Shown here in pieces: positions 10,421 to 26,636 of a DNA stretch of 28,844 bases. The stretch's first letter is position 1; each line of letters starts with the position of its first letter. The notes beneath the pieces are model-generated. The model did no database searches, was not told the origin of the DNA, and saw nothing but the letters and a program-made list of their open reading frames with translations. The translations under genes and the position numbers were made by a program. Source of the stretch: a virus. Location: positions 1 through 28,844 of IMG/VR virus record IMGVR_UViG_3300029798_000024. The stretch is one strand, 5' to 3'.

Positions 10421-10721
10421 TTTCCAGCGCCTCACGGCACCGCACGCCACGGCACAACACGCCACCCCACGGCACGCCACCGCACAACACGACAATCAGT
10501 TTCCAGCACGCCACGGCACCACACGTCACCGCACGCCACGGCACAACACGCCACCCCACGGCACGCCACCGCACAACACGACAATCAGTTTCCTGCACAT
10601 CGCTTCACAACACGCCACGACACGTCACACCACAACACAACACGACACGACACGACACAACACGACAAACCCGCGAAAGATTAACCTTGCTAAACCAACT
10701 GAAAACAGGTAGACGCCAGAC
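10421..10721 (+). repeat. C/A-rich repetitive intergenic region, copy 2, with 67-bp direct repeat
   Basis: 301 bp without a credible gene. It begins with the 20-base stretch shared with 9817-9836, contains a 67-bp perfect direct repeat (10438-10504 and 10527-10593, period 89 bp), then decays into CACGA/CACAA words to about 10665. Within the repeat the word CCACGGCAC recurs several times. The + strand is strongly depleted of G, so RNA made from it should be poorly structured. The last 50 bp hold a weak promoter-like pair (TTGCTA 10687-10692, TAGACG 10710-10715) before the next start. Confidence 0.9.
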
Positions 10722-11462
10722 ATGATCGCAACGCCAACCAAAAGGGCTGCACGCACGCGCCGCGACACCGGCGAGCTAACCCGCGACCAGAAACGCCAGC
10801 GCGAGCGCAACGCGGCAACCGAGGCGAGGCTCGCGACCCAGACCACGCCCCACAAGTGGGAGCGCCGGGGAGTCCAGCCCGAGGTTGTGCCGGTCAAACC
10901 GTCGGGCTTTACCGCGCTCATGCGCCTTGCTGCCGCCGTTGCCGAGGCGAGCGATCCGGCGGAAAAGGCGCAACTTGAGGCCGAATATCGCAAGGAAGCG
11001 ACGTCTGTTGCGGATCTAACGGAGGACATTGGTGACCACAAGCTCAGGCTGATTGAGGGCGAGATGATTGCGGCTGGCTTTGCGCCTATCGTGGAACCGG
11101 AGGAGATGAGCCGCAAAGACTGGACGGCATTCCACTCCCGCCTCATGGCGTGCAAGCGAAAGGCGGCGGCATGGCTGGCAAGGTCGCGTGACTTTGCGAT
11201 TGAGCGTTGGGGTAATGACTTCGTGGAGAAGAGCGAGGCGCAGATGGAGCTGGCGTTGGGCATTGAGCCGCGCCAACTGCCGCAACGTGACGACGCGCCG
11301 GAGGTGCGGATGGCCGCGACGGTCGCTAAAAAGGTGGCGAGGTTTGAGGGAGCGGACTTGGCAGCGTGGAAGGTGGACGACTTGAGGGCGGTGGCGGATG
11401 CGCTGAATCCCGTGGTGGGCTTTACGATGCGGATAGGGCTGGAATTGAAATCGAGGGAATAG
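10722..11462 (+). CDS. Basic helical phage protein, unknown function, before the packaging genes
   Basis: 246 residues from the ATG at 10722. The N-terminus is very basic (TKRAARTRRDTGELTRDQKRQRERN), followed by a region with VPVKPSGFTALMRLAAAVAEA, helices rich in Glu/Lys, and WTAFHSRLMACKRKAAAWLARSRDFA. No catalytic motif is visible. Its place just before the terminase genes would suit a packaging accessory or DNA-binding protein, but this is only positional. The last residues (VVGFTMRIGLELKSRE) end at TAG 11460-11462, followed by a 224-bp gap. Confidence 0.7.
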   Translation: MIATPTKRAARTRRDTGELTRDQKRQRERNAATEARLATQTTPHKWERRGVQPEVVPVKPSGFTALMRLAAAVAEASDPAEKAQLEAEYRKEATSVADLTEDIGDHKLRLIEGEMIAAGFAPIVEPEEMSRKDWTAFHSRLMACKRKAAAWLARSRDFAIERWGNDFVEKSEAQMELALGIEPRQLPQRDDAPEVRMAATVAKKVARFEGADLAAWKVDDLRAVADALNPVVGFTMRIGLELKSRE

Positions 11463-13960: not shown

Positions 13961-13989
13961 TTGACATCCGCGCAAAGGTCCGCAATGTC
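13961..13989 (+). promoter_or_regulatory. Internal promoter-like module A, 34 nt before a GTG start
   Basis: TTGACA (13961-13966), a 17-base spacer, then AATGTC (13984-13989). The distance from the first T to the GTG at 13995 is 34 bases. Both ends of the module (TTGACATCCGC and GTCGCGCCGTG) are identical in module B at 19961, while the spacer centre differs, as expected of a promoter. Transcription starting about 7 bases after the -10 position would begin at the start codon, giving a leaderless transcript. Confidence 0.55.
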
Positions 13990-13994
13990 GCGCC

Positions 13995-14306
13995 GTGTCA
14001 ATTTTCGCGACCGCACGCGCAATCTACCTATCGCTAAAAGACGATCCATCCGCGATTGAGAAAATCCAGCAGGCTGCGTCTGAGCTTGCCGTCGCCATCG
14101 CCACCGATCCGAACGGAGCCGGGACGATCACAAGCGCGACCATGAACGGGCAAACCTTCGCTATGATCAACGCCCTGACCCCGCGCGACCGTCTGGCAGT
14201 TCTTCGCATTGTTCTAACGTCATTTGACGCCGGAATGACCCCGCAACGCACGGCGCAACCGCTGTTCATTTCCACTAACATTTACCCGACCTATAATGCT
14301 AGTTGA
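13995..14306 (+). CDS. Small protein at the gpW position (head-tail joining candidate)
   Basis: 103 residues from GTG 13995; there is no earlier start after the large-terminase stop and no nearby internal Met. Blocks are SIFATARAIYLSLKDDPSAIE, GTITSATMNGQTFAMINALTPRDR and LAVLRIVLTSFDAGMTPQRT. In lambda the gene between large terminase and portal is gpW, a small head-completion protein whose 'G-----F---S--DL' pattern is loosely recalled here by NGQTFAMINALTPRDRL. The similarity is weak, so the role is positional. It has its own promoter-like sequence and overlaps the portal gene by 11 bases. Confidence 0.6.
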   Translation: MSIFATARAIYLSLKDDPSAIEKIQQAASELAVAIATDPNGAGTITSATMNGQTFAMINALTPRDRLAVLRIVLTSFDAGMTPQRTAQPLFISTNIYPTYNAS

Positions 14307-15852
14307 CCGCTACGGGCAAATGATCCGCTACGCGCACTCCGCGCAGCAGACGATGAACAAGGGGCAAATCTACCCGGTGCGCCCGCTTGACATTGAAAAA
14401 CTCATTACGGCTCGCGACTCGCAAACCCTTCGCAGTTTGTCCGGTCGATTATTCACCAACATGGGCGTTCCCCGTTGTGCCGTCGGTCAGATTGCCGACT
14501 TTTCCATTGGTGAGGCATGGCTTCCATCCTATCGCGTGCAGTCGGACGCCGATGCCGGAAAACGCGTGGCAGGATTCATGCGGGACGTTTGGTTTCCCAA
14601 CTGCGACGTGCGCGGTGGGTTCTACGACTGGCAAACCTTATTGTGGTTGACAATTATAGAGCTTTATCGGGACGGGGATTGCTTCTGGGCGCTTATTAAA
14701 GGCGATGACGGATTCCCGAGAATCCAAATCATCCGCGCACACCGGATAGGGAACGGTGGCAATGGCGGCGGGTATTCAAACGAGATTCAATCCGGCAAGT
14801 GGCAGGGATTGAAAATTCACGACGGGATCATTACCTGGCCAAGCGGAAGGGTAGCAGCCTATCGCCACTTGTTAGGAGACGGCATGGATGACTTCGAGGA
14901 TATTGACGCCGCGAACATGATTCACATCATGTCACCTGATTATGCCGATCAATACCGGGGACTCCCAGCGTTCACTCACGCAATTGACGATTTTCTATCA
15001 ATGCTCAGTTCCAACACGGATGAGCGCATTCGCATGCAGATTGTGTCGCGCATGTATCTGACCGTGTTCAACGAAACCGGAGGCCCGGACCTTGATGACC
15101 CGCGCTCTATCATGCAACCGGGCGTTGATAGTAACAATCCGCTTCAACCTCGCGACGTTACTGCAACGGAAATTTCCGGCGGCATCACCTACTTTCAGGC
15201 GGGTGGAGGCGAGAAGATCGAGCAAACCAAGCACGAGAATCCTGGTGACATTTACAACAACTTCAACGATCGCATGATTCGATCATCGCTCGTTGGAATC
15301 AAGTGGCCGATGGCGCTCGTTTGGCAGGCTGCCGGACAAGGCACCGCTGAGCGCACGGAAATAATGAAGGCCCGCCGAACTGTGGTAGCATGTCAGAAAC
15401 GAATCCGTTATGCAGCACGCCGCGCGTTTGGATGGGCATACAGCGTATTTGCCGATCCGTCCACAAGTCCGAAAGATAGCCGATGGGCGCAAGCGTTGCC
15501 GGTTCTTAATTACCCGTTCTCATGGGACTTCACCACACCGCCGCGCATCACCGTTGACGACGGGCGCGAATCAAAGGCGATGTTAGACGAATGGCGTGCA
15601 GGTGCTCGAAACCTCTGCGACATAATCGAAACGCAGACCGTTGCCGAGTTTTACGCGGCACGCGCTGATGAAATCGCAATCCGCAAAGTAATCGCCCGCC
15701 AAAAAGCGGAAGAGGCCAGCAAGTCCAGCGGATTCGACATCACGATTGACGACCGGGAAATGGCGATGCTTACGCCTAACGAGGTTTCTCCATCCGCCAC
15801 AATGGACGCGGAAGAAACCACAACCGAAAAGCCAACCACTCAAGACGAATGA
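14296..15852 (+). CDS. Portal protein, lambda gpB type
   Basis: 518 residues. The portal forms the ring at the head vertex through which DNA enters and leaves and to which the tail joins. Marks of the lambda-type family are the N-terminal TARDSQTLRSLSGRLFTNMG (about 36-55), YDWQTLLWLTIIELYRDGDCFWAL (about 112-135, the conserved 'W------dGe-f'), NMIHIMSPDYADQYRGLPAFTHAI (about 209-232) and the later GIKWPMALVWQAAGQGTAERTEIMKARR. The C-terminus is acidic and disordered-looking (EETTTEKPTTQDE). Gene order (terminase, small gene, portal, protease) is that of lambda. It overlaps the protease gene by four bases (ATGA). Confidence 0.88.
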   Translation: MLVDRYGQMIRYAHSAQQTMNKGQIYPVRPLDIEKLITARDSQTLRSLSGRLFTNMGVPRCAVGQIADFSIGEAWLPSYRVQSDADAGKRVAGFMRDVWFPNCDVRGGFYDWQTLLWLTIIELYRDGDCFWALIKGDDGFPRIQIIRAHRIGNGGNGGGYSNEIQSGKWQGLKIHDGIITWPSGRVAAYRHLLGDGMDDFEDIDAANMIHIMSPDYADQYRGLPAFTHAIDDFLSMLSSNTDERIRMQIVSRMYLTVFNETGGPDLDDPRSIMQPGVDSNNPLQPRDVTATEISGGITYFQAGGGEKIEQTKHENPGDIYNNFNDRMIRSSLVGIKWPMALVWQAAGQGTAERTEIMKARRTVVACQKRIRYAARRAFGWAYSVFADPSTSPKDSRWAQALPVLNYPFSWDFTTPPRITVDDGRESKAMLDEWRAGARNLCDIIETQTVAEFYAARADEIAIRKVIARQKAEEASKSSGFDITIDDREMAMLTPNEVSPSATMDAEETTTEKPTTQDE

Positions 15853-16700
15853 AGACAATCACGCCGACGATCTCAATGCTCAGAATGTTAGCCAGCATCA
15901 AAGGCGAGCATTGGATGATTCGACCCGACATGATCGAGCGCCATGCGCTTGCCGCCTTGGACGTGCCGAGCTTCAAATCCGAAAGCGACGATGACGAGGA
16001 AGATTATTTCATCACCCGACCCGAACCGGCAATCGACGCAAACGGAGTTGGCAGGGTCTCGGTGGCTGGAACGCTATTGGATAGCTGCCCGCCAATTTAT
16101 GAACGGCTTGGAATCGTCACATGCTATCCGACAATCATAAACGAGGCGCAATCCCTAATCGCCAAGGGAGCCAGGTCGATTCTGTTTGTCGTGGATTCTC
16201 CCGGCGGAATGGTTGGCGGAAACGCTGAAACTTGCGGAGCCATCAAGTCGTTAGGAGTTCCAACCGCCGCATTCGCCGTTGGCATGGCTTGCTCCGCAGC
16301 ATATAAAATTGCCGCAAGCACTGATTTGATTATTGCCACTCCATCCGCAGAGGTTGGAAACATTGGAGTAATTCTGTCATGGGCGGATTGCACCGGATTC
16401 TGGCAAGAGATGGGTATTGAGATGAAGGCGCTCACCAATAAAGGCGCTGATTTGAAAAGCACGTTCCACCTCGAGCCTAACGCAAACCAGCTTGTTTTTC
16501 TGCAAGAAAAAATTGACCAAATGGGAGCTGACTTCCGCGAATGGATCGAAACAAACCGCCCGCAAGTTGATGCTGAGGTTTTCCGCGCCGGATGGTATTG
16601 CGGACTCGCCGCAGAAAGCATGGGACTGATTGACGGCATGGGAACAATCGAAGACGCATCGGAAGAGCTTGCAACCAGAAATTTTGACATCGGCAAATAA
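15849..16700 (+). CDS. Prohead protease, S49/SppA-like (lambda gpC type)
   Basis: 283 residues with a ClpP/SppA-like crotonase fold. VDSPGGMVGG (115-124) forms the oxyanion region, Ser149 in GMACSAAY is the nucleophile, and the general-base lysine should be Lys203 in the TNKGADLKS segment. TPSAEVGNIGVI (164-175) is the usual conserved stretch between them. It processes scaffold and capsid proteins during head maturation. Unlike lambda gpC, no scaffold is fused to its C-terminus; the scaffold is a separate gene 34 bases downstream. The N-terminal 60 residues are probably a self-cleaved or targeting part. Confidence 0.85.
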   Translation: MKTITPTISMLRMLASIKGEHWMIRPDMIERHALAALDVPSFKSESDDDEEDYFITRPEPAIDANGVGRVSVAGTLLDSCPPIYERLGIVTCYPTIINEAQSLIAKGARSILFVVDSPGGMVGGNAETCGAIKSLGVPTAAFAVGMACSAAYKIAASTDLIIATPSAEVGNIGVILSWADCTGFWQEMGIEMKALTNKGADLKSTFHLEPNANQLVFLQEKIDQMGADFREWIETNRPQVDAEVFRAGWYCGLAAESMGLIDGMGTIEDASEELATRNFDIGK

Positions 16701-16734
16701 CAACCCAACCTAACCACGAATCCAACCAAACATT

Positions 16735-17181
16735 ATGATCTTCACTCAAAAAGGAATCAAGGAAGCGCTCGCCGCGAAAGACGCCGAGATTGCAAGTCTC
16801 ACTTCAGACCTATCCGCCGCCAACATCCGCCTCGAAGAAATGAAGGGAGCGAACGAGCGAATTGCGGAATTGGAGCAAGGTGCGACTGAAGCTGCCGAGC
16901 AACTCGCCACGGCTAACGCTGCCACCGCCTCGGTCAAAGCCGAACTAGCCACCGCGCAAGCAGCCATCGCCGCGCATCCGGCCGCGCTTCAAGCTGCTTT
17001 AGAATCCGCATCAGCGCAGGCGGTTCAAATCGCCGCCGCCGCCGGTCTTGCCGCTCCGCTTGTCTCGACCGCCACCAACGAATCCGCCGGAATCGCTCTT
17101 TCACAATCCGCGTTCGATGCTCTCGACGCCACCGCGAAAATGAATTTCCGCAAGAATCCTAAAAACAAAATCAACGACTAA
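16735..17181 (+). CDS. Capsid scaffolding protein
   Basis: 148 residues, mostly Ala/Glu/Gln/Thr with heptad periodicity (EIASLTSDLSAANIRLEEMK; ERIAELEQGATEAAEQLATA), so an elongated coiled coil. The C-terminus is basic (MNFRKNPKNKIND), as needed for contact with the capsid inside. Small coiled-coil proteins between protease and coat gene are scaffolds in many tailed phages. Neither enzymatic motif nor signal peptide is present. Its leader (caacccaacctaaccacg... ) lacks a Shine-Dalgarno. Degradation by the upstream protease is expected. Confidence 0.75.
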   Translation: MIFTQKGIKEALAAKDAEIASLTSDLSAANIRLEEMKGANERIAELEQGATEAAEQLATANAATASVKAELATAQAAIAAHPAALQAALESASAQAVQIAAAAGLAAPLVSTATNESAGIALSQSAFDALDATAKMNFRKNPKNKIND

Positions 17182-17218
17182 TCCAATCCAATCCAATCCA
17201 ATCCAACCAAACTGAATT
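17181..17218 (+). repeat. ATCCA pentanucleotide repeat in the capsid gene leader
   Basis: Five tandem ATCCA units (17181-17205) followed by ACCAA fill the 37-bp gap between scaffold and coat genes. The leader has no G until close to the ATG and no Shine-Dalgarno, although the coat protein must be made in the highest amount. Confidence 0.85.
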
Positions 17219-18397
17219 ATGGCCGCTCCTACTACCAATAACACCCTTACCAATCTAATCCCAGACTTTTACGCGACCGTCGACGTTGTCGCTCGCGAGC
17301 TTGTCGGCTTCCTTCCCGCCGTGATGCGCGACCCCGTTGCGGATCGCGTGGCAGTTGGGCAAACCCTCCGCGTGCCTCAGACTCCCGCCAACGCCGCAGG
17401 CAAGGATATTGTCCCCGCCATGGCGCTCCCCGCAGCCGCGAATCAAACCATCGGAAACGCATCGCTGACTCTAACCAAGTCCCGCAGCTTCCCGTTCTCA
17501 TGGTCCGCTGAAGATCGCTACGCAGTCAACCAAGGCCCCGGCACTCTCTCGCTAAATCAGCAGCAGATCGCCCAGGCCATCCGCGCTTGTGTGAACGAAA
17601 TCGAAACCGACGTTGCCACCGCCGCTTATCTTGGCGCAAGTCGCGCCGTGGCCGTTGCTGATACCAGCTCGTTTAAGGGAACGCTGGCAGACATTGCCCT
17701 GCAAAAAAAAGTGCTGGACGATAACGGCGCTCCCGGCAGCGACCGTCACATGGTCATTTCCACGACCGGCGGCGCGGCCCTTCGCACGCTTGGGCAGCTC
17801 ACCAAGGCTAATGAGGCTGGAACCGCTGACACGCTCCGCAATGGCACGCTGCTAGACATTCACGGTTTTGGAATCCGCGAATCGGCGCAAATCCAATCGC
17901 CCGCAATCGGCACCACTTCCACCGCCGTCCTCGCTTCCACGGCGACCACGGTCGGGCAGACGAGCTTCACGCTAAAAGCAACCGGCAGCGGCACCATCGT
18001 TGCTGGTGACGTTGTGACTATCGGAGTCGGCGGCGATACCAACAAGTACGTTGTCGCGACTTCCACTGCAACCACTTCCGTTAGTGGTGCGACCTTCACA
18101 ATCAATGCTCCTGGATTGCGCGTGGCACAGGGCGCGGCGGAGCATGCCGTGGCAGTCGTGGCAAAGTCGGATCGCTCTATCGCATTCGCCCGCCCCGGCA
18201 TCTTGCTTGCAACGCGCTTGCCGGTTTATGACGGATTCGACCTTGCCATCATGCGCGAGGTTGTCACCGATCCAATCAGCGGCATCAGCTTCGAGTTCGC
18301 GGTTTATCCTGGCTATCGCATGGCAACCTTTGAAGTTGCCGCCGCATGGGGCGTCAAGGTGCTTCGCCCCGAATTCGTTTCCTGTCTTCTGGGGTAA
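17219..18397 (+). CDS. Major capsid protein, P22 coat type
   Basis: 392 residues. The N-terminal part (NTLTNLIPDFYATVDVVARELVG) and the stretch GQTLRVPQTP...LTLTKSRSFPFSWSAEDRYAVNQG match, from memory, the P22 gene 5 coat family, an HK97-fold capsid lineage. GTIVAGDVVTIGV (about 257-269) resembles the P22-type 'G-L-AGDvfTI' segment of the inserted domain. The C-terminus LAIMREVVTDPISGISFEFAVYPGYRMATFEVAAAWGVKVLRPE is typical of the last strands. Thr/Ala-rich segments in the middle may be a surface domain. The strong terminator 20 bases after the stop would end or reduce transcription here. Confidence 0.85.
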   Translation: MAAPTTNNTLTNLIPDFYATVDVVARELVGFLPAVMRDPVADRVAVGQTLRVPQTPANAAGKDIVPAMALPAAANQTIGNASLTLTKSRSFPFSWSAEDRYAVNQGPGTLSLNQQQIAQAIRACVNEIETDVATAAYLGASRAVAVADTSSFKGTLADIALQKKVLDDNGAPGSDRHMVISTTGGAALRTLGQLTKANEAGTADTLRNGTLLDIHGFGIRESAQIQSPAIGTTSTAVLASTATTVGQTSFTLKATGSGTIVAGDVVTIGVGGDTNKYVVATSTATTSVSGATFTINAPGLRVAQGAAEHAVAVVAKSDRSIAFARPGILLATRLPVYDGFDLAIMREVVTDPISGISFEFAVYPGYRMATFEVAAAWGVKVLRPEFVSCLLG

Positions 18398-18416
18398 CTG
18401 ATGGTGTTCATGGAAG

Positions 18417-18453
18417 CCGGGGCGGGTGGAAACGCCCGTCCCGGTTTTGTTTT
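18417..18453 (+). terminator. Rho-independent terminator after the capsid gene
   Basis: A 12-bp stem (18417-18428 with 18433-18444, two G-T pairs) closed by a GAAA tetraloop, followed by TTTTGTTTT. It sits 20 bases after the coat stop. It may reduce transcription into the tail genes relative to the coat gene. The T-run pairs with AAG before the stem, which lengthens the hairpin. Confidence 0.88.
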
Positions 18454-18469
18454 CCAACCTAACAAAACA

Positions 18470-19033
18470 ATGCAAAAGATTATGCTCGAATTACTGGCGG
18501 AAAAGGTCTTGACCGTAACCGCGAACAATGGATCCGCCGCAACCGTTCGCCGGGTCGCGCAATCCGGCAGCAATACCAACTACATCGTGACCGAGCTTGC
18601 CGCCGGAGCATCAACAATCATCGGCCCGTTCATGGGAGTTAGGGAATACGCAATTGAAGCAAACGGAGCATTGCCGACATATACGATCACCGATCCGGCA
18701 AGCGGACGTGACGCCGTGACGAAATATCCGGCAGATGGCGCAATCGCGATTTCAAACAGCCTAGCCGTAATCACCAAGGGCAGCGCTGCCGCGATGACTC
18801 TGGCAGCTCCTACGCTGGATGAAGATGGCACAATTCTGAAAGTCATCAGCGCAACAGCTTTTGCGCATTTCGTCACAGCCGAAAACTTGCTTATTAATGA
18901 CGGCACCAGCGGAGGCGCAAAAGACATGATCGAATTTCCGGCATACGTCGGAGGGGCCATAACGCTTGCCGCCTACGGTGGCGAATGGTATGTAATGGAT
19001 GGGTATAGCGTAGGGGTATCGGTAACGGTCTAA
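18470..19033 (+). CDS. Structural or head-completion protein of unknown type
   Basis: 187 residues from the ATG at 18470; the frame is open back to 18401, but that part is the terminator. The protein has a run of beta-rich, Gly/Ala/Thr-rich segments (AAGASTIIGPFMGVREYAIE; AEFPAYVGGAITLAAYGGEWYV-like ending) and no cysteine or enzymatic motif. It resembles small head-decoration or tail-attachment proteins in composition only. The position right after the coat gene is where decoration or head-completion proteins are encoded. The leader ccaacctaacaaaaca has no Shine-Dalgarno. Confidence 0.6.
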   Translation: MQKIMLELLAEKVLTVTANNGSAATVRRVAQSGSNTNYIVTELAAGASTIIGPFMGVREYAIEANGALPTYTITDPASGRDAVTKYPADGAIAISNSLAVITKGSAAAMTLAAPTLDEDGTILKVISATAFAHFVTAENLLINDGTSGGAKDMIEFPAYVGGAITLAAYGGEWYVMDGYSVGVSVTV

Positions 19034-19036
19034 TCA

Positions 19037-19369
19037 ATGTCACTCCTAACAGCATTCGCCGCCGCCGCGTCCAAAGCCGCCGGCGCCGTAATCGGGATGG
19101 AAAAGATCACCATCGGAACCGGGCCGCCTGTTGACGCCGTGCTTGGCGAGGTCATGGATGACCGGACCTATGTCGACTTCGGGCATGACCAGCAACAGAC
19201 GCTCACAGCCGTTGTGCGGCTCGCTGACTGGCTTGTTGGCTATGCCGCGCCGGGGACTCCATACATCGGCAAGAAAGCGGTGGCGCGAGGCGTGGAGTTC
19301 CGCGTTGAGACTGTCAATATCGGCCAGGCGTTCGTCACCGTGAAATTCCAAAACACCGGGAAATCGTAA
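19037..19369 (+). CDS. Head-tail connector candidate
   Basis: 110 residues. It begins with a helix SLLTAFAAAASKAAGAVIG and continues with beta segments (EKITIGTGPPVDAVLGEV; DWLVGYAAPGTP; KKAVARGVEFRVETVN). The N-terminal helix followed by small beta domain is the look of head-closure or tail-attachment proteins such as lambda FII, but no direct match was recognised. The gene order (after coat, before tail genes) supports this. The stop is inside a short AAATCG/CGATTT inverted repeat. Confidence 0.6.
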   Translation: MSLLTAFAAAASKAAGAVIGMEKITIGTGPPVDAVLGEVMDDRTYVDFGHDQQQTLTAVVRLADWLVGYAAPGTPYIGKKAVARGVEFRVETVNIGQAFVTVKFQNTGKS

Positions 19370-19390
19370 CCGGAAAGTGCGATTTTTCTT
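19361..19390 (+). terminator. Weak terminator-like hairpin
   Basis: AAATCG (19361-19366) pairs with CGATTT (19380-19385) across 13 bases, followed by TTCTT. The stem is short and AT-rich and the stop codon lies in the loop, so it may be only a weak terminator. It overlaps the start of the ligase promoter region. Confidence 0.3.
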
Positions 19391-19417
19391 GCGTCGGATA
19401 TGGTTTTTCGGTATTTT
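19389..19417 (+). promoter_or_regulatory. Promoter-like pair before the ligase gene
   Basis: TTGCGT (19389-19394), 17 bases, then TATTTT (19412-19417). The GTG at 19424 lies 7 bases after the -10 box and 35 bases from the start of the -35 box, nearly the geometry of the other internal modules. Each box matches the consensus at four of six positions. Confidence 0.45.
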
Positions 19418-19423
19418 TCCACC

Positions 19424-19957
19424 GTGAGCGCCGCCCTGCTGATTTCCGATATTCCAGCCGATCCTGCCGGATGGTGGATTTCCGAGAAATATGACGGCGT
19501 TCGCGCCATCTGGACCGGCACGAAGCTGATGAGCCGGAATGGAAACGATCTTCGCGCCCCGGCATGGTTTGTTGCCGGCCTGCCGGATTGCCGCTTGGAC
19601 GGCGAGTTGTGGATGGGGCGCGGTAGGTTTGACGATCTTGTTTCCACGATCCAGCGCAAAGATTCCAATTGGGAAGGCGTTCGCTATATGGTTTTCGATC
19701 TTGCGGACCCTTCCATGCCGTTTGAAGAGCGCAACGCGATTCTTTCCATACTGCCTCCAATCGGGCATCTTGAGGCAGTCAACCACCGCGCCTGCAAGGG
19801 CCACAGTGACCTTGACGCCACTGAGGCGGCTATTGTTGCCGCTGGCGGTGAGGGATGCGTCTTGCGCCGTCCCGGTCACCTTTACCGCCCTGGACGCGCC
19901 GGGGACGTTGTGAAGGTGAAACGTCTAACGAAAGACGTTGACCGCTGGCAGGGCTGA
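19424..19957 (+). CDS. ATP-dependent DNA ligase catalytic domain (LigE-like), lacking the OB domain
   Basis: 177 residues from GTG 19424; ATG 19400 (185 residues) is the alternative, but the promoter spacing and the family-like start favour GTG. The nucleotidyltransferase motifs are all present: motif I EKYDGVRA with Lys22 that takes AMP, SRNGND (37-42), motif III LDGELW with Glu61, VFDL (90-93), motif IV EGCVLRRP (143-150) and motif V VVKVKR (162-167). The protein ends at DVDRWQG, where ligases begin the OB-fold domain that carries motif VI, so this domain is absent. LigE-like signs are ADPAGWW and APAWFVAGLPDC...LDGELWMGRGRF. No signal peptide is present. It would seal nicks if the OB domain is dispensable, or be another nucleotidyltransferase. 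It sits among head-completion genes and looks like an inserted moron gene. Confidence 0.85.
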   Translation: MSAALLISDIPADPAGWWISEKYDGVRAIWTGTKLMSRNGNDLRAPAWFVAGLPDCRLDGELWMGRGRFDDLVSTIQRKDSNWEGVRYMVFDLADPSMPFEERNAILSILPPIGHLEAVNHRACKGHSDLDATEAAIVAAGGEGCVLRRPGHLYRPGRAGDVVKVKRLTKDVDRWQG

Positions 19958-19960
19958 CTT

Positions 19961-19989
19961 TTGACATCCGCCACCTATCCGCCAAGGTC
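19961..19989 (+). promoter_or_regulatory. Internal promoter-like module B, 34 nt before a GTG start
   Basis: TTGACA (19961-19966), 17 bases, then AAGGTC (19984-19989), with GTG at 19995. It shares TTGACATCCGC and GTCGCGCCGTG exactly with module A at 13961 and has the same 34-base spacing; 26 of 37 bases agree. It begins 3 bases after the ligase stop. Confidence 0.55.
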
Positions 19990-19994
19990 GCGCC

Positions 19995-20714
19995 GTGGTC
20001 AAGGCGTCGATGGATATGGGCATGTTGGAACGCTCGTTGAGAAAATCAGCGAAAGCGTTCGGCGAAACAACCGCGCAATCGGTTAGGCGTTGGGGAGTTT
20101 CAACGTGCCGAAAGCTGGCGGTGGAAACATCCGCATTCGGGCAAACCGGAACTTTCAAGACTCAGAAGCAGGCTATTGAAAATGACGCCAAGAAAGTCCT
20201 TCACGTCTATCCAGACGAGTTTGGAAACAATACCGGGATCATCACGGCGAAAAACAAGAAGCTTCTTTTGTCGGCGGAAGCCGTGAACGATTGGATAGAG
20301 CTTAACCGCACCGGTCGCAACGGACGGACGCCGAAAAAAGGATTGCCATCAGAAGAAAGAAAATGCTGCAAGGCAACCACGTTCAGGTCGGCAATGCGGA
20401 TACGATTCAAGCACGCTGGCATGGCGAAGGGCGGATGGCTTGGCGCGGGGATGGAAATCGCCCGCGAAGTTGGCGGTGGATACAAGGATGTAATCGGAAA
20501 GAATTTCATGTCCTACGCGCAAAAGTTTTCGCACATGGGGACGGCGACAAAACCCCAACCGGGATGGAAACCGTTCACAAATCTAATCAATCGCGTTCCT
20601 CACGTATCGCGTCCTAACGTGCTTCATCGAAACGGAATACAAGAGGCCGTGAAGTGGGGCGGAATACGGGCGCTGAGTTGGTATAAACAAGCATTAGCCG
20701 CAAAACTGAAATGA
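19995..20714 (+). CDS. Tail-completion or minor tail protein candidate
   Basis: 239 residues from GTG 19995 (ATG 20010 is an alternative). It is a basic protein with helical N-terminus (MLERSLRKSAKAFGETTAQSVRRWG), then KLAVETSAFGQTGTFKTQKQAIENDAKK and a C-terminus with several RFKHAGMAKGGW and WGGIRALSWYKQALAAKLK blocks. Composition and position suit the HK97 gp10 / lambda Z class of tail-completion proteins (DNA- or tail-end-binding), but there is no firm match. It overlaps the next gene by 4 bases (ATGA). Confidence 0.55.
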   Translation: MVKASMDMGMLERSLRKSAKAFGETTAQSVRRWGVSTCRKLAVETSAFGQTGTFKTQKQAIENDAKKVLHVYPDEFGNNTGIITAKNKKLLLSAEAVNDWIELNRTGRNGRTPKKGLPSEERKCCKATTFRSAMRIRFKHAGMAKGGWLGAGMEIAREVGGGYKDVIGKNFMSYAQKFSHMGTATKPQPGWKPFTNLINRVPHVSRPNVLHRNGIQEAVKWGGIRALSWYKQALAAKLK

Positions 20715-21154
20715 CCGCCGAACTAGCCAAACAATCCATCCTCGACTGGATCACTGCCAACCACGCCCATTTTCCGATCCTCGCCGGAATCGAAACCCGC
20801 ACGATGGGTGACACTGAAAATACCGTCTTTCCGTTCATCGGAATCATGGAAACCGGAATCACCACGCTTGTTGACGGCGGCGTAATCATGCACGGAGTGG
20901 ATGACATTACCGCCCAGGTTGACGTAATCAGCGTGCCGGAATCGGAAGCCGACGCCGGGACCAGTCTCGCCAACCACAACCTGATTGTGGACGCGGTTTG
21001 GCAAATCCTCGCCAATCGCGACGGCATCTTGTTTTGCGAAGAGCGGAACAACTGCCGGATCTTTGACATCCGCGCATCTTCTCCAACAATGACTGCGAAT
21101 GACGGCCACCGGGTCAGCACAATCCCTCTCACGATCATAGCCTGTCCAATCTAA
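20711..21154 (+). CDS. Tail terminator-like protein
   Basis: 147 residues. Its order (after a Z-like protein and before the tail tube) is that of lambda gpU, which ends the tail tube. Visible segments: LAKQSILDWITANHAHFPIL, a beta region (VFPFIGIMETGITTLVDGGV; ITAQVDVISVPES), a helix (NHNLIVDAVWQILANRDG) and a final strand STIPLTIIACPI. This alternation of a helix and beta strands fits the gpU fold. The call is by order and secondary-structure pattern, not by a sequence match. Confidence 0.55.
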   Translation: MTAELAKQSILDWITANHAHFPILAGIETRTMGDTENTVFPFIGIMETGITTLVDGGVIMHGVDDITAQVDVISVPESEADAGTSLANHNLIVDAVWQILANRDGILFCEERNNCRIFDIRASSPTMTANDGHRVSTIPLTIIACPI

Positions 21155-21166
21155 CCAATCAATCAA

Positions 21167-21598
21167 ATGGCATCAGCAGCAACAGTTTACGGCGGCGGGC
21201 AATACGGCCTCGCAACGGATGTTTCAGCGACCGGACTTGTCGCCGCGACAAATCCTTTCACGAAGTCAAGCAAGACGGCGGAAGCGCCTGATCACATCGG
21301 GAATACCTGCATGGTTTCCATCTATGACCCGCGCTGTGAAGTCAGCATGGAAGGTGTGGTTGCGGCAAAAGGCACCGGCATGGTCGGGACCATCGGCGGA
21401 TTGATTACGCTCTCAAACACCACGAAAAACACCCGCTTGCGCTTGTCTGAAAACCTTGTTTCAGCGGCCACGACCGGCGCGGGAATCATCCTGACGGACT
21501 ACTCTCTCACACCGGAACAATCCGGGTTTGAAAAGGGCAGCTTGAAAGGCGTTTACTTCGCTTATCTCGACACTACTTCAACTTACAGCGCATCGTAG
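21167..21598 (+). CDS. Major tail tube protein candidate
   Basis: 143 residues, beta-rich and Gly/Thr/Ala-rich (TVYGGGQYGLATDVSATGLV; ISMEGVVA-like centre CEVSMEGVVAAKGTGMVGTIGGL; SLTPEQSGFEKGSLKGVYFAYL). Position directly before the chaperone/tape-measure genes is that of the major tail protein in siphoviruses. Highest tail expression would be expected, but there is no internal promoter. The leader caatcaatcaaatgg is C/A-rich without Shine-Dalgarno. Size is at the small end for tube proteins. Confidence 0.6.
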   Translation: MASAATVYGGGQYGLATDVSATGLVAATNPFTKSSKTAEAPDHIGNTCMVSIYDPRCEVSMEGVVAAKGTGMVGTIGGLITLSNTTKNTRLRLSENLVSAATTGAGIILTDYSLTPEQSGFEKGSLKGVYFAYLDTTSTYSAS

Positions 21599-21609
21599 CG
21601 CATCCGCTT

Positions 21610-22203
21610 ATGACAAATGAAATGGTTGGACAATACAGCAAGCACACCGGGGACATCAACCTAGCCGCCGCAATCATGGCGTGCCAAGTTCCGTTGGACC
21701 CTGATAACCCGGTTCGCCTGATAGAATCCGCGCCGGATCAAAAGTGCTACGCGAGCTTTCACCTAATGGAACGCTCCGAGGACGGCACGACGGAAACGGA
21801 AAAGCTGATGGAACATTGGAGCGGGTTTGTCACCGATGATCCCTTGCCACTTGATCACGGCTTCCGCCATATCTGCGATTTCATCCGATCGCGTGCCAAG
21901 GGCGTCAGAATGAATACATCGGACTGGATTGACTACGCTGTTGAGTATTGCGCGGAGCGTGGTGTAAAGCTGCCGGGGCTGACCAATCTGCAATCCGTTC
22001 CGGCATTCGTCAACGCGCTGCCGTTCGCCATGCAAAGCTACATCCTCGCTTTTGTATTCAATCGTGATTACTGCCTGCAACTTTATCGGAACGCCCGCCG
22101 CGCAAAGTTCATGGCATCAGATGACGGGATAAGGCATTCAATGATCGACCGGGCTTTGCCGCAGTGGAAAACGAAAGAACTCCTATCGAGACTCCAAGGA
22201 TAA
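21610..22203 (+). CDS. Protein of unknown function between tail tube and tail chaperone
   Basis: 197 residues. Mixed alpha/beta composition with several cysteines (MACQVPLDPDNPVRLIES; CYASFHLMERSEDGTTETEKLMEHWSG; DWIDYAVEYCAERGVKLPG; FNRDYCLQLYRNARRAKF). No family is recognised. Lambda has no extra gene at this place between tube and chaperone, so it is an addition or a fused or duplicated chaperone-region gene. It has the same strand and tight spacing (7 bases to the next start). Confidence 0.6.
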   Translation: MTNEMVGQYSKHTGDINLAAAIMACQVPLDPDNPVRLIESAPDQKCYASFHLMERSEDGTTETEKLMEHWSGFVTDDPLPLDHGFRHICDFIRSRAKGVRMNTSDWIDYAVEYCAERGVKLPGLTNLQSVPAFVNALPFAMQSYILAFVFNRDYCLQLYRNARRAKFMASDDGIRHSMIDRALPQWKTKELLSRLQG

Positions 22204-22210
22204 CTAACAA

Positions 22211-22588
22211 ATGAAACGACAAGACCTTCTCACACTCAACTGGACCGGCCCGCAGCTAACGCTAGACGGGCGCGACATTATCCTATCGTCTGGAGCTTAC
22301 GAGCTTTTGCGATTATGGGGAAATTGTATTGTCGATTGCCCACTCGGAAATAATTACGCTCTTGGGGAGGCGTCGCTTGTTTGCTACTCAACAAAAGACG
22401 AATTGAAAGAGTTGCGAAATATATCTCCAGAGCAGCGGCGAGAAATCGTTGTAGATTTTATGATTGACCATGATGGAACAATTCAAGAATGCTACGAAGG
22501 GCTTGTTTTGCGCCTGAAATCCATCAACGCCGCTGCGGTGGAAAGCGAGCTGCCGGGAAAGTCTCAGGATGCACCCCCAGCTTTCTAG
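22211..22588 (+). CDS. Tail assembly chaperone, short form (lambda gpG-like)
   Basis: 125 residues. It is helical with LLTLNWTGPQLTLDGRDIILSS at the start and LKELRNISPEQRREIVVDFMI in the middle, ending in LPGKSQDAPPAF at TAG 22586-22588. In siphoviruses such a gene makes the short chaperone that binds tape-measure protein, and a -1 frameshift makes a longer form. The slippery heptamer lies at codons 115-117, close to the end, and the downstream frame is open without a stop. Order (before the tape measure) supports this. Confidence 0.8.
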   Translation: MKRQDLLTLNWTGPQLTLDGRDIILSSGAYELLRLWGNCIVDCPLGNNYALGEASLVCYSTKDELKELRNISPEQRREIVVDFMIDHDGTIQECYEGLVLRLKSINAAAVESELPGKSQDAPPAF

Positions 22589-22797
22589 CAAGTCTCAAGC
22601 TCTTCGCACTCAAGAACAATCTCAACCCCGATACCCTGATATGGCATACGGACATGGCCGAGGTAATGCAACTGCTTCACGCGGAAGGAATCCAGAACGG
22701 AAGGACTTTCCAATGGCTGAATTACTTCGACCCCGAGCCGGAACTATTGGCGGAATTTGAGGCAACCTATCAAGACTCTGAATTTGAACTAACGTAA
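22211..22797 (+). CDS. Tail assembly chaperone, long form made by -1 frameshift (gpGT-like)
   Basis: 195 residues: 117 from the upstream frame (ending ELPGK), then 78 from the -1 frame, beginning VSGCTPSFLASLKLFALKN at 22561 and ending at TAA 22795-22797. Shifting at GGA AAG to GGG AAA leaves Gly-Lys unchanged and continues at GTC. The added part has LIWHTDMAEVMQLLHAEGIQN and an acidic end DPEPELLAEFEATYQDSEFELT. In lambda the extension (T) recruits the tail tube protein while the G part binds the tape measure. No start codon with its own signals exists for the second frame. Confidence 0.82.
22555..22561 (+). other. -1 frameshift slippery site G GGA AAG
   Basis: GGGAAAG in the zero frame is read as G GGA AAG, matching the X XXY YYZ rule with X=G, Y=A, Z=G, the same heptamer as the lambda G-GT site. 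The zero-frame stop lies 24 bases downstream and the -1 frame is open to 22797. Confidence 0.88.
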
Positions 22798-23924
22798 TGG
22801 CTATCGAAACCAAGGTAAAGGTTGGATACGACGGGACCGCCGTAAAGCATGGATTTGACCAGATTGCCAAGCATGGAAAGGCGACCGGGGAAAAGCTGAT
22901 AGGCGCATTCGGCTTCAAGGAAATAGGCAAGGCTGCGTTGGCATTTGCTGGAATCGGATCGGTAATGACCGTGTTTGGAAAGGGATATGAAACCTTGTCG
23001 TGGGGAGCGGAATTGGCACAGCTATCAAAGCAACTTCACATGACGGTTCCTGACTTGATGGAACTTGAAGAGCAATTCCGGCTTTGCAGGCTGGACGGCG
23101 ACAGCCTCGGCGTGACAATCGGCAAGATGAGAATGTTCTTGGAAAAAGCGTGGGAAGCACCGGGGGAGGAGCGCGACATGCTGAAACAAATGGGACTCGG
23201 CGTGCAGCAAATGGACAAGATGAAAAACGCCAAGCAACAATTCGAGGCTATTCTCAACGGCATGTCAAAAGTTGCGGAAAGGGAGCAGGAAAAATACCTC
23301 AAATCTATCTTCGGAAAGGGCGGATTTCCGATTTCGAGATTCATCGGAAAGTCCGGCGATCTATCAAGCCAGGCAAAAAAGAACCTTGGAGAGGCGCCGG
23401 AATATATCGACAAGCACATTGAGAATCTTGAGAAAGCCGAGCTGGCAATCGGAATGTTGGCTACCAGCATTCACCTTGCATACGTTCATATCTTCGATGC
23501 GTTGCAACATGTTTTTGGAGAGGATTTTATCGGCAAGTTTATCAAGAACAACCTATCATCCGGGGCGCTGGAAAAGGCATTCAATGATTTCGCGGGATAC
23601 CTGAAAGGCAAAACCGCAGGCGATGTTTTCGCTGACATCGGCAGGCAGATGGCGGAAGGATTCATGTCAGGGATCGGCAACACTTTCAACAAGCGGGTTG
23701 CAGGGACGGCACAAGGAGACTACGGGGCAAGCTCGCTAGGCATAAGCATAGCGAGGGCATGGATCGACACTAAGGCATTATTCACTCATCAAGAAAGCCA
23801 TGTCCTCGGAACCGGGACTGTGATGACCGGCAACGTGGAAGCATTCTACAGAGGTCTTGACCGGATAGGAGAATACCTGTCAACAATAGTCAAAAACGGG
23901 GGCCAGCTAGTCTGGGGAAAATAA
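22797..23924 (+). CDS. Tail tape-measure protein, short
   Basis: 375 residues. It starts with TKVKVGYDGTAVKHGFDQIAKHG, has a hydrophobic helix region (FKEIGKAALAFAGIGSVMTVFG, about 40-62) and continues with long amphipathic helices, as in tape measures that set tail length and are ejected with DNA. The ATG overlaps the chaperone stop in TAATG. By the ~1.5 Angstrom per residue rule for tape measures the tail would be about 55 nm, short for a siphovirus. No peptidase or lysozyme domain is visible. The middle (SVMTVFG-KGYETLSWGAELAQLSKQLHMTVPDLMELEEQF) is typical of phage tape-measure N-termini. Confidence 0.75.
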   Translation: MAIETKVKVGYDGTAVKHGFDQIAKHGKATGEKLIGAFGFKEIGKAALAFAGIGSVMTVFGKGYETLSWGAELAQLSKQLHMTVPDLMELEEQFRLCRLDGDSLGVTIGKMRMFLEKAWEAPGEERDMLKQMGLGVQQMDKMKNAKQQFEAILNGMSKVAEREQEKYLKSIFGKGGFPISRFIGKSGDLSSQAKKNLGEAPEYIDKHIENLEKAELAIGMLATSIHLAYVHIFDALQHVFGEDFIGKFIKNNLSSGALEKAFNDFAGYLKGKTAGDVFADIGRQMAEGFMSGIGNTFNKRVAGTAQGDYGASSLGISIARAWIDTKALFTHQESHVLGTGTVMTGNVEAFYRGLDRIGEYLSTIVKNGGQLVWGK

Positions 23925-24835
23925 TGGGAGCATCGGCAGCAATCGTTCACGGAAGCATTCAGCCTTATGAGTGGAAGCAAACTTGCGACTTCACGGCGAG
24001 CAAAGACGAAACCGGGAAATGGAAAGGGCAGGCGTCTTTCAACTGCCGAAAGTATGACTTTGCGATACTGTCACTAACGACATTCCGCAGGGGAGTCCCT
24101 ATCGGCGCAGTGGTTAACGCGAAGTATGCAGGCGAGTGGTCATTTCTTCTGATAGAAACCACGTCGCACCAGCACAAGGCAGGCGGCATAACTGAAATCA
24201 CCGTTACTTTCGGCGGGCGCGATCCCAACGACAGCGACAAGAACGAGGATGAGCTTACTTATGGCTTGAAGGCAACGACGACCGAGGCTTGCATCTTGGA
24301 AAAGATCAAGAAAGCGGAATCGCCTGGAGGCATAACCGAGGCTGAAACGGCAGCGGGAGCTTTGTCGGCGGATGAATACGAAATGATAACCCGTCTTTTC
24401 AACAATCAGCTTTTCGTCCGGCCTGCCAAGAATGACAGCGGAGATACGGCGGTTTACTTGGTGGACATTCACGAAGCGGACTTCGGAAAGATTTCAAGCG
24501 CGAACGGGCTGGAATGGTATAACGAGATTTTCAAACGCGGACACCGGACATACGACCGCCCCTTGCTGGTATGGTACAAGAAAGGCTCCAACATCGGAGG
24601 CTTGCCAGCCGAAAGAATGAAACGGTTTTCGTATATCGACCCTAATCCTGAAAATCTCAACCCGGAAATTCCCAAGGCTTTCCCCGACAGGAATTGGAGG
24701 CTTATGGAAATGTCATGCTCGCAAAGCAGCGGGACCAACAAGAACACGACGGAATACGAACTCGGCTGGCACATGTCACCGGGTCCTGGAGATCAAAAGT
24801 TCCCGGTTAAGATTTACACGATGCCGACAACCTAA
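23924..24835 (+). CDS. Tail-tip or minor tail protein, unknown family
   Basis: 303 residues, starting in a TAATG overlap with the tape measure. The N-terminal part is beta-rich (KGQASFNCRKYDFAILSLTTFRRG; WSFLLIETTSHQHKAGGITEITVTFGGRD), the centre has an acidic helix (EAETAAGALSADEYEMITRLFNNQLF) and the C-terminal half is rich in Trp, Tyr and Pro. The order after the tape measure matches distal tail proteins that build the tip. No direct family recognised. Confidence 0.6.
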   Translation: MGASAAIVHGSIQPYEWKQTCDFTASKDETGKWKGQASFNCRKYDFAILSLTTFRRGVPIGAVVNAKYAGEWSFLLIETTSHQHKAGGITEITVTFGGRDPNDSDKNEDELTYGLKATTTEACILEKIKKAESPGGITEAETAAGALSADEYEMITRLFNNQLFVRPAKNDSGDTAVYLVDIHEADFGKISSANGLEWYNEIFKRGHRTYDRPLLVWYKKGSNIGGLPAERMKRFSYIDPNPENLNPEIPKAFPDRNWRLMEMSCSQSSGTNKNTTEYELGWHMSPGPGDQKFPVKIYTMPTT

Positions 24836-24838
24836 CCA

Positions 24839-25729
24839 ATGCCAGCACCTTCACAAGTCGGGATTGAAAAGCCGCATCCGGTAACCCCTACCACTCCTTT
24901 CAGTTCCAAGTGGGCGAACTCGGTTGCGAGGTCAATCGACGCCTTGCACGGGCGCGGTGACGACAAGTCACCGATGCCGCTATCTCCGCGCATAGTCAGC
25001 GCATTCTGGCCCAAGTTCTATTGGCGCGACGATTCTGTTTATTTCACACTTTCGCCAGGATCAATAATCGAGCGGCACACGATCACTGGAGAGGCTTTGC
25101 AATACTGGCCGATCACGAGCATTGATTCCGGCACGGGCAAGGAAATCGAATACGGGCCGATTGCCGATGGATACAGCGTCTATGTCCATTATGATACCAA
25201 ACCGATTGGATCGGTAGGCACTGGATCGCCATACGTTGACCCTGAGATCATAATCGCCACCGCACCGGCAAGCACGCACTACGCGCCACCGATAGAAGGC
25301 GATTCGGGAAGCTCTGGAACGCAATACGTCAAGCTATGCACGCTGCATATCAATTCAGAAACGAAGTGCCTTTCAGTTGACAAGGTGGCGATGGGCGACA
25401 ACGTGAATCATTGGCGCGACCTCCCGAAATTCAAGGCCACTGGCTACACCAGCGGAGTTCACGCGCTTTTTACCAGGTTCAGTCTAACGGATGGCGCGTT
25501 CCATTACAAGGGACTCAAGGCAACTGGAGACGTTACGCTGACAGAATCCGGCGGGGCTGGATCGGAGATTATTGAAATCGGAACAACCTCGGCAACCGGA
25601 CCTAGCTTCAATATCGAGATTTCTTACGGCGGATACCCGGCGTCTATATTTCTTTACGTTAGAAACGGTCGATTCGTTTCCGTCGATGAAGGAGCCGCCG
25701 TGCCGACTCACGTTGTGGTGGGGGCGTAA
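24839..25729 (+). CDS. Tail or baseplate protein, unknown family
   Basis: 296 residues, beta-rich. N-terminal part is Pro-rich (MPAPSQVGIEKPHPVTPTTP), then a WANSVARSIDALHGRG segment also known to me from tail proteins that hold the fibre, followed by strands (FWPKFYWRDDSVYFTLSPG; DGYSVYVHYDTKP). The C-terminal half is Gly/Ser/Thr-rich (GDVTLTESGGAGSEIIEIG). Likely a structural part of the tail tip. A short GGGCG/TGCCC hairpin followed by TTTTT lies at its stop and may be a weak terminator. Confidence 0.6.
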   Translation: MPAPSQVGIEKPHPVTPTTPFSSKWANSVARSIDALHGRGDDKSPMPLSPRIVSAFWPKFYWRDDSVYFTLSPGSIIERHTITGEALQYWPITSIDSGTGKEIEYGPIADGYSVYVHYDTKPIGSVGTGSPYVDPEIIIATAPASTHYAPPIEGDSGSSGTQYVKLCTLHINSETKCLSVDKVAMGDNVNHWRDLPKFKATGYTSGVHALFTRFSLTDGAFHYKGLKATGDVTLTESGGAGSEIIEIGTTSATGPSFNIEISYGGYPASIFLYVRNGRFVSVDEGAAVPTHVVVGA

Positions 25730-25744
25730 GTATGCCCGTGATTT

Positions 25745-25773
25745 TTGACAACCGCCGCAAACTCAAAACAATA
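25745..25773 (+). promoter_or_regulatory. Internal promoter-like module C, 34 nt before an ATG start
   Basis: TTGACA (25745-25750), 17 bases, then ACAATA (25768-25773), with ATG at 25779, the same 34-base spacing as modules A and B. Outside the -35 box and the following CCGC (A and B: ATCCGC; here ACCGCC) it shares little with them. Confidence 0.45.
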
Positions 25774-25778
25774 CCGCC

Positions 25779-26636
25779 ATGCCACTTTCCAACGTATCAT
25801 CCACCGCCAGCCTGTTCGGGACGGCAACCCACACGCGGGCCGGTATCGTGGGCTCTGACACTCTCGGCGCTCAGATGACCGTGACACAACTCGCCTCGAC
25901 GGTCGGGTTTGTCATTACCGCCACGCTCGCAAAGGTTGGCGACGCTCTCCTTGTAAATGTCCCGGCAAACTCTTCCAGCGGCTCGACTGCATGGGTTGCA
26001 GGCGCGGCTCAAATCGAAACCGCGACCGTCGTAGCGGCCAGCGGATGCACGTCTAACGGCAACTGCGCCCTCGTGCTGACTTCCGGCGTGGTGGCAGGCT
26101 CGCCGCTCACCGTCACCGTGCCGCTCACAACCGCCGCAAACACCGCGACGTTGGTTGCTGCCGCGCTTGCGGCCGGACTCGCGGCAAATGCAGCCGTAGC
26201 CGCTAAATACGCCGTCACAAGCAGCGGAGCGGACATTATTTTGACGCGAGCAAAAGACGCTAACGGCTTTTACCAGGCGACGGATTCAACGCTTAATCTC
26301 GCAATCCCGGCAGGCATCGGCATCACGGCGGCGGCGACAAGCGCCGGAACGCTCGCAGGAACCCAAACCAGCGGGGCGCTGGTATCCGGCGGCGATGGCA
26401 AGGACTTCGAGGGGATTGCGACGCCGACAATTACCGCGGTGCAAGCTCTGGATATTCGCATCTTGAACGGAGGGGCTAATGCCGTATTGGCCGCGACCAG
26501 TTTTCCTATTCCAGCCCTGTTTGTTGACCGCCTCGCCAGCGGGGCTTTAGGGTCGCTCATTGGAGGCGCTATCACGATCACCGCAACTGCCGCGAACACG
26601 CAAATCTATATGACAGTTTTCGGAACCTCCGCCTAA
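25779..26636 (+). CDS. Ala/Thr/Ser-rich tail or fibre-associated structural protein
   Basis: 285 residues dominated by Ala, Thr, Ser, Gly and Val, with beta-strand repeats (VTVPLTTAANTATLVAAALAAG; AVTSSGADIILTRAKDANGF). The 'VTSSGADI-LT-----n---' block is familiar to me from phage tail and fibre proteins. No catalytic motif is visible; two cysteines lie close together (SGCTSNGNCALV). The gene has its own promoter-like module. The composition and place suggest a head or tail decoration or fibre-joint protein. Confidence 0.6.
   Translation: MPLSNVSSTASLFGTATHTRAGIVGSDTLGAQMTVTQLASTVGFVITATLAKVGDALLVNVPANSSSGSTAWVAGAAQIETATVVAASGCTSNGNCALVLTSGVVAGSPLTVTVPLTTAANTATLVAAALAAGLAANAAVAAKYAVTSSGADIILTRAKDANGFYQATDSTLNLAIPAGIGITAAATSAGTLAGTQTSGALVSGGDGKDFEGIATPTITAVQALDIRILNGGANAVLAATSFPIPALFVDRLASGALGSLIGGAITITATAANTQIYMTVFGTSA

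Follow-up and report, generated by a model that had tools for sequence, protein, structure and literature searches.

The PRM promoter of the lambda cI gene is a phage sigma70 promoter with its +1 at the A of the start codon, and its mRNA is leaderless. The late operon described here is similar in that phage promoters of the sigma70 type are predicted to have their +1 at a start codon, but PRM serves a single regulatory gene, whereas here a repeated set is found in a late structural operon. Among bacteria, leaderless promoters with the -10 element directly before the open reading frame (ORF) occur in Deinococcus-Thermus (PMC12340547), and mycobacteria have leaderless RTG genes, leaderless translation from ATG or GTG being efficient there (PMC4633059). 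The likeness to both groups lies in a -10 a few nt before the start codon and an ATG or GTG as first codon of the transcript, here a predicted one. In these bacteria the habit is host-wide; here it is predicted for the late genes of one phage lineage, and a strong, extended -35 (TTTGACWTTCGCC) is conserved.

Two kinds of phage repeat are also comparable. The start-associated sequences of cluster K mycobacteriophages (PMC3203893) are short asymmetric repeats at a fixed distance before many phage starts, mostly in one orientation, but their place is 3–7 nt upstream of the start and they include a Shine-Dalgarno core; in the sequence before the starts studied here no such core was seen at 3–7 nt, and a -35/-10 pair is found instead. 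The stoperators of cluster A mycobacteriophages (PMC6550527) are asymmetric sites that recur in one orientation, in some cases within promoters, and the present box is likewise an asymmetric repeat in one orientation. Stoperators are bound by a repressor, and no fixed distance to start codons or to a -10 is known for them. Our literature search on leaderless late promoters of phages and on promoters of Verrucomicrobia found no prior report among the papers searched.

Phased boxes in the late operon

The DNA analysed, here called the window, is the whole of a 28,844-nt stretch, a 28.8-kb virus record of 56% GC with tailed-phage gene order. All late genes lie on the plus strand, in the order terminase, 103-aa gene, portal, protease, 148-aa gene, major capsid, ligase and tail genes, and a Shine-Dalgarno sequence is absent from most gene starts of the window. 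Searches of the window against Rfam, for tRNAs and for near-identical phages were all empty, and a standard terminator scan performed no better on it than on shuffled sequence.

The initial annotation had placed the first T of a TTGACA exactly 34 nt before three start codons, and this was confirmed for GTG 13995, GTG 19995 and ATG 25779, with boxes at 13961, 19961 and 25745. The genes are those of a 103-aa protein between terminase and portal (13995–14306), a 239-aa late protein (19995–20714) and a 285-aa late protein (25779–26636). Each is preceded on the plus strand by a predicted leaderless promoter with a 16-nt spacer. At 13961–13997 the -35 TTGACA (13961–13966) is followed by the -10 CAATGT (13983–13988), and the predicted +1 is the G of GTG 13995; at 19961–19997 the -10 is CAAGGT (19983–19988) and the predicted +1 the G of GTG 19995; at 25745–25781 the -10 is AACAAT (25767–25772) and the predicted +1 the A of ATG 25779. 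These -10 elements match TATAAT poorly. The first two sites share both of their ends, TTGACATCCGC and GTCGCGCCGTG, as had been described; that their spacer centres differ freely is only partly right, since the -10 and the motif TTCGC/TCCGC are conserved. About 0.009 TTGACA would be expected per offset before the 39 starts, and three or more has a probability of about 1e-7, or about 5e-6 once 40 offsets are allowed for. The hexamer itself is in mild excess in the window, 20 copies as compared to 13.6 expected, and it is its phasing, rather than its frequency, that is exceptional.

The initial annotation had missed two more copies of the element, which stand at 16684 and 21063; their start codons lie 51 and 104 nt downstream, and both contain the extended word TTTTGACATCCGC, slightly altered. 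The copy at 21063–21097 is a predicted leadered promoter on the plus strand for gene 21167, with a -35 TTGACA, a 16-nt spacer, the -10 AACAAT (21085–21090), a predicted +1 at 21097 and a 70-nt leader. The one at 16684–16718, also on the plus strand, is predicted to serve gene 16735 directly before the major capsid gene, with a -35 TTGACA, the -10 CAACCT (16706–16711), a predicted +1 at 16718 and a 17-nt leader. All five sites thus have NANNNT at a 16-nt spacer (CAATGT, CAAGGT, AACAAT, AACAAT and CAACCT). A weight matrix built from 23 sites of relatives, with no window sequence in the training, ranked the same five highest on both strands, all on the coding strand: 13961, 19961, 21063, 25745 and 16684, scoring 26.2, 25.4, 21.5, 16.8 and 14.2, with the next-best position at 13.4. 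One of six approximate shuffled controls scored 19.6, and the score alone is therefore no proof of the weaker sites, which appear to be backed additionally by their placement before conserved genes and by counterparts in relatives.

The degenerate pair proposed 35 nt before the ligase start proved credible. The predicted leaderless promoter (19389–19426, plus strand) reads TTGCGT 19389-N17-TATTTT-N6-GTG 19424, and two orthologous ligase genes have the same architecture, TTGCGC-N17-TAGATT-N6-GTG in L097 and TTGACG-N17-TAAATC-N6-GTG in L071; the matrix did not rank the site, and all of its support comes from these orthologues. The gene (19424–19957, plus strand) encodes a protein with an ATP-dependent DNA ligase domain (PF01068, E 9.5e-9). 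Comparison with L097 and L071 shows GTG 19424 to be the conserved start, and it is probably the true one, preferred to ATG 19400, which would read 8 codons too long. GTG starts are found in 3 of the 38 genes of the window (13995, 19424 and 19995), which are three of the four predicted leaderless genes, a count that is a weak point because the gene list otherwise preferred ATG. A weaker pair, also proposed, before the start at 10722 (TTGCTA-N17-TAGACG-N6-ATG) does exist in the sequence, but it is weak, went unranked by the matrix and gained no support.

Conservation and the -10 signature in relatives

Searches with the capsid and portal proteins gave well over 150 related contigs. In 45 portal-related contigs, TTTGAC at -35 (equal to TTGACA at -34) was the top position-specific hexamer before candidate starts, with 21 occurrences, close relatives included, against 0.74 expected and nothing equivalent on the other strand. 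After dereplication of all contigs, offset 34 had 28 sites and offset 35 had 11, as compared to about 2–3 at other offsets, and the minus strand was flat. The enrichment of the spacing that the initial annotation had proposed to look for in related phages is thus strongly positive. A second peak was seen at offsets 19 (27 sites) and 20 (12 sites). About 30 dereplicated sites gave the consensus TTTGAC(A/T)-TTCGCC-N10-NANNNT-N5-C-(A/G)TG, and the core TTGACA/TTGACT is present in all window sites and in most relatives.

The arrangement was found before the same genes in these phages. TTGACT stands at exactly -34 before the orthologues of gene 13995 in L005 (2398), L006 (121) and L044 (7210), of gene 19995 in L005 (9718, with CAAAAT at -12 to -7) and of gene 25779 in L007 (11334) and L045 (10185). 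The capsid proteins of L005, L006 and L007 are 71% identical to that of the window and those of L044 and L045 54%, and the proteins compared for 13995 and 19995 have 29–49% identity, so the elements can be regarded as footprints in diverged sequence. In protein alignments the N-termini of the 13995 orthologues coincide or lie within one residue, and most 19995 orthologues align at the same start. The 19995 orthologues with a box start with GTG (4 of 4), and those compared that lack it start with ATG (5 of 5).

The leadered positions recur as well, namely the region just before the capsid gene and the 142–143-aa gene 21167. A box of the 21063 type is also found upstream of the 21167 orthologue in L005 and L008 and before an ORF of the same size in L176 and L195; in L044 and L097 this orthologue is predicted to be leaderless. 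The element just before the capsid gene is also found in L008 (2412, ORF at 2468), and L176 has at 10542 an arrangement like that of 16684, with an ORF 50 nt downstream, as has L187 at a similar distance. In the protease region itself, the window (15849–17181) has a protease gene and, after it, a distinct 148-aa gene, whereas a single longer ORF spans this region in L008 (1829–2905) and L005 (4131–5204); the TTGACA box and an internal ATG lie within this ORF, as with nested protease/scaffold genes.

The A at -11 and the T at -7 are the key bases of a sigma70 -10, and a pyrimidine followed by a purine is the usual start of transcription, here with the first base of the start codon taken as +1. 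Among 32 sites at offset 34/35, A is found at -11 in 30 (94%), T at -7 in 20 (62%) and a pyrimidine at -1 in 31 (97%). The pair A(-11)..T(-7), present together in 20 of the 32, is the best A..T column pair, and in 3,000 permutations no pair of columns, whichever they were, exceeded 9 sites. At sites where the box stands at -35 (L044 12841, L210 1390, L097 3707) a spacer of 17 keeps the last base of the -10 at 7 nt before the start; the predicted +1 thereby coincides with the ATG or GTG throughout the 34/35 peak, spacer 17 covarying with offset 35. The elements accordingly have what is expected of a sigma70-type promoter, a -35 hexamer near TTGACA and a 16–18-nt spacer to a -10 with A(-11) and T(-7).

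It was also possible to separate the -10 from the start codon. Eleven boxes of the clade have no start at 33–36 nt, and A is found at offset 23 in 10 of them and T at offset 27 in 6 (both together in 6), concentrated at the 16-nt spacing, whereas A..T was near background in 12 minus-strand control boxes. Eight of the 11 lead into ORFs 38–110 nt downstream. The -10 is found 16 nt from the box even where no start codon is adjacent, which means that it goes with the -35 and not with the start codon, and this speaks for a sigma70-type promoter rather than a translation signal.

We also scanned a viral collection for TTTTGACWTTCGCC followed by RTG, with ORFs of at least 60 codons. Among the matches listed, offset 34 had 7 ORFs, with A at -11 in all 7, and eight other offsets had 15, with A at -11 in 4. 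The feature appears to be confined to this phage lineage, since the seven belong mostly to relatives that were known before.

Interpretation of the box

From the architecture and conservation observed, we infer that the boxes act as -35 elements of sigma70-type promoters inside the late operon, and it is likely that these give leaderless mRNAs at 13995, 19995 and 25779, and probably at the ligase gene. That a transcript begins at the start codon, as the initial annotation had suggested, is supported by the enrichment of the spacing, by the -10 signature at the right place and by the tie between -10 and -35, the 5' ends themselves being predicted. RNA polymerase would read the full element, TTTGAC(A/T)-TYCGCC-N10-NANNNT, as a promoter and begin transcription 7 nt after the last -10 base, at a purine preceded by a pyrimidine. 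This purine would be the first base of the GTG or ATG at 13995, 19995 and 25779, and probably of the ligase GTG 19424, which implies an mRNA with no 5' leader, translated through direct recognition of its 5'-terminal RTG. At 16735 and 21167 the same promoter would be followed by a short leader. A message of the whole operon may cover the start codons as well.

A plain sigma70 promoter does not include TTCGCC after its -35. The conservation of this motif directly after the -35 (element TTTGACATTCGCC) hints at a second reader of the site, conceivably a regulator. A search for a phage sigma factor (PF04542) in 18 viral records, which may be fragments, found none; a search for a T7-like polymerase (PF00940) gave no match, and neither did its control.

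In many relatives, prophages of Verrucomicrobia among them, the same box stands at -19 or -20 relative to the start codon. In some cases (L218, L227, L230, L236, L237 and L245) this is before apparent orthologues of 13995 and 19995, the orthology being judged by position, size and N-terminus only. A pyrimidine is found at -1 in 22 of 22 offset-19 sites, and the region between box and start is GC-rich with no -10. Hairpins between box and start in this class had a mean fold energy of -1.08 as compared to -0.87 in shuffled sequence, and are not a feature that these sites share. The TGA of the box is the stop codon of the upstream gene in 13 of 44 cases, and this is not general. A 93-aa gene in L218 and L236, whose portal is about 35% identical, has the box at -20, and its apparent counterpart in the window, 13995, at -34, a shift of 14 nt between apparent orthologues. 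Another box, TTTTGACA, is found 13–14 nt before start codons in L016, L017, L019, L021, L041, L064, L081, L084 and L291, with a GC-rich gap, a strong pyrimidine preference at -1 and no -10; a cluster of these is also present at G003:C116 (L141, L142), not on the contig of the capsid-related prophage.

With its box at -19/-20, a sigma70 promoter cannot give a transcript that begins at the start codon, and since other relatives place the box where no -10 fits, it may serve as something other than a -35. Either the box at -19/-20 has another reader, or the -34 sites are that reader's site combined with a -35. It is conceivable, though we give it a rather low chance, that TTTGAC is the core of a promoter system of the phage lineage in two registers, as a -35 at -34 with a -10 in the clade of the window, and, in other relatives, at -19/-20 with a strict pyrimidine-purine step at the start and without a -10, where a different initiation factor, possibly phage-encoded, would drive leaderless transcription.

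The box without a -10 in other relatives would also suit a different role, that of an asymmetric, stoperator-like site (TTTGACWTYCGCC) for a phage repressor, which would silence the late genes in the lysogen with only some copies overlapping promoters. The single orientation relative to transcription, the repetition at gene borders and a conservation that reaches beyond a -35 all agree with this, and stoperators too are asymmetric and mostly in one orientation (PMC6550527). An operator, however, needs no exact phasing to a start codon (34/35) or to a -10 at 16–17 nt, in this clade almost all extended boxes of the coding strand have an A at the -10 position, and no repressor gene was identified in the fragment; we therefore consider this primary role unlikely. 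It seems quite improbable that box and spacer are instead a translation start signal read in the operon mRNA. Such signals are a known kind in the start-associated sequences of cluster K (PMC3203893), and the box does keep two tight distances to start codons, 19/20 and 34/35, as one would look for. The leadered sites, however, keep the distance between -10 and box while the start codon lies 38–110 nt from the box, the 16S rRNA of the host of a related prophage has no complement to TTTGACA, and conservation falls on the positions at which a promoter melts and initiates (-11, -7 and -1/+1). That a common hexamer came to this spacing by chance could be argued because TTGACA is only slightly enriched in the window, but the probability of about 5e-6 after 40 offsets and the independent conservation at orthologous starts speak against it, and the comparative data refute it; chance is very unlikely because distant relatives have kept this layout upstream of the same genes. 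The sigma70-type promoter with a leaderless transcript is thus the reading that we prefer.

Host and implications

Relatives of the capsid and portal are found as prophages not only in Verrucomicrobiota but in Proteobacteria and others as well, and a published list (PMC10783764) counts Verrucomicrobia bacterium IMCC26134 and Akkermansia as Shine-Dalgarno-scarce. Together these make a host in the Verrucomicrobiota likely for this uncultured phage. Leaderless mRNAs would be fitting for a host in which Shine-Dalgarno pairing plays little part. A 400-kb portion of the IMCC26134 chromosome had no strong hexamer phased to gene starts, and TTGACA is rare there. The leader of the major capsid gene (17180–17218) is a tandem AATCC repeat and poor in G, and relatives have similar C/A/T-rich leaders (CTAACC, CAACCAAC) before the capsid gene and the 21167 gene; these may be leaders free of structure, for a host that lacks Shine-Dalgarno pairing.

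The element predicts start codons, such as GTG 19424 over ATG 19400 for the ligase, and is a usable signal for gene callers in a poorly annotated lineage. The system would also suit tests of the competition between leaderless, leadered and operon mRNAs. Discussions of leaderless expression usually concern either hosts in which it is a general habit or single phage genes. If the proposed promoters are real, this phage solves translation initiation through the placement of its promoters, apparently in hosts that are poor in Shine-Dalgarno sequences.
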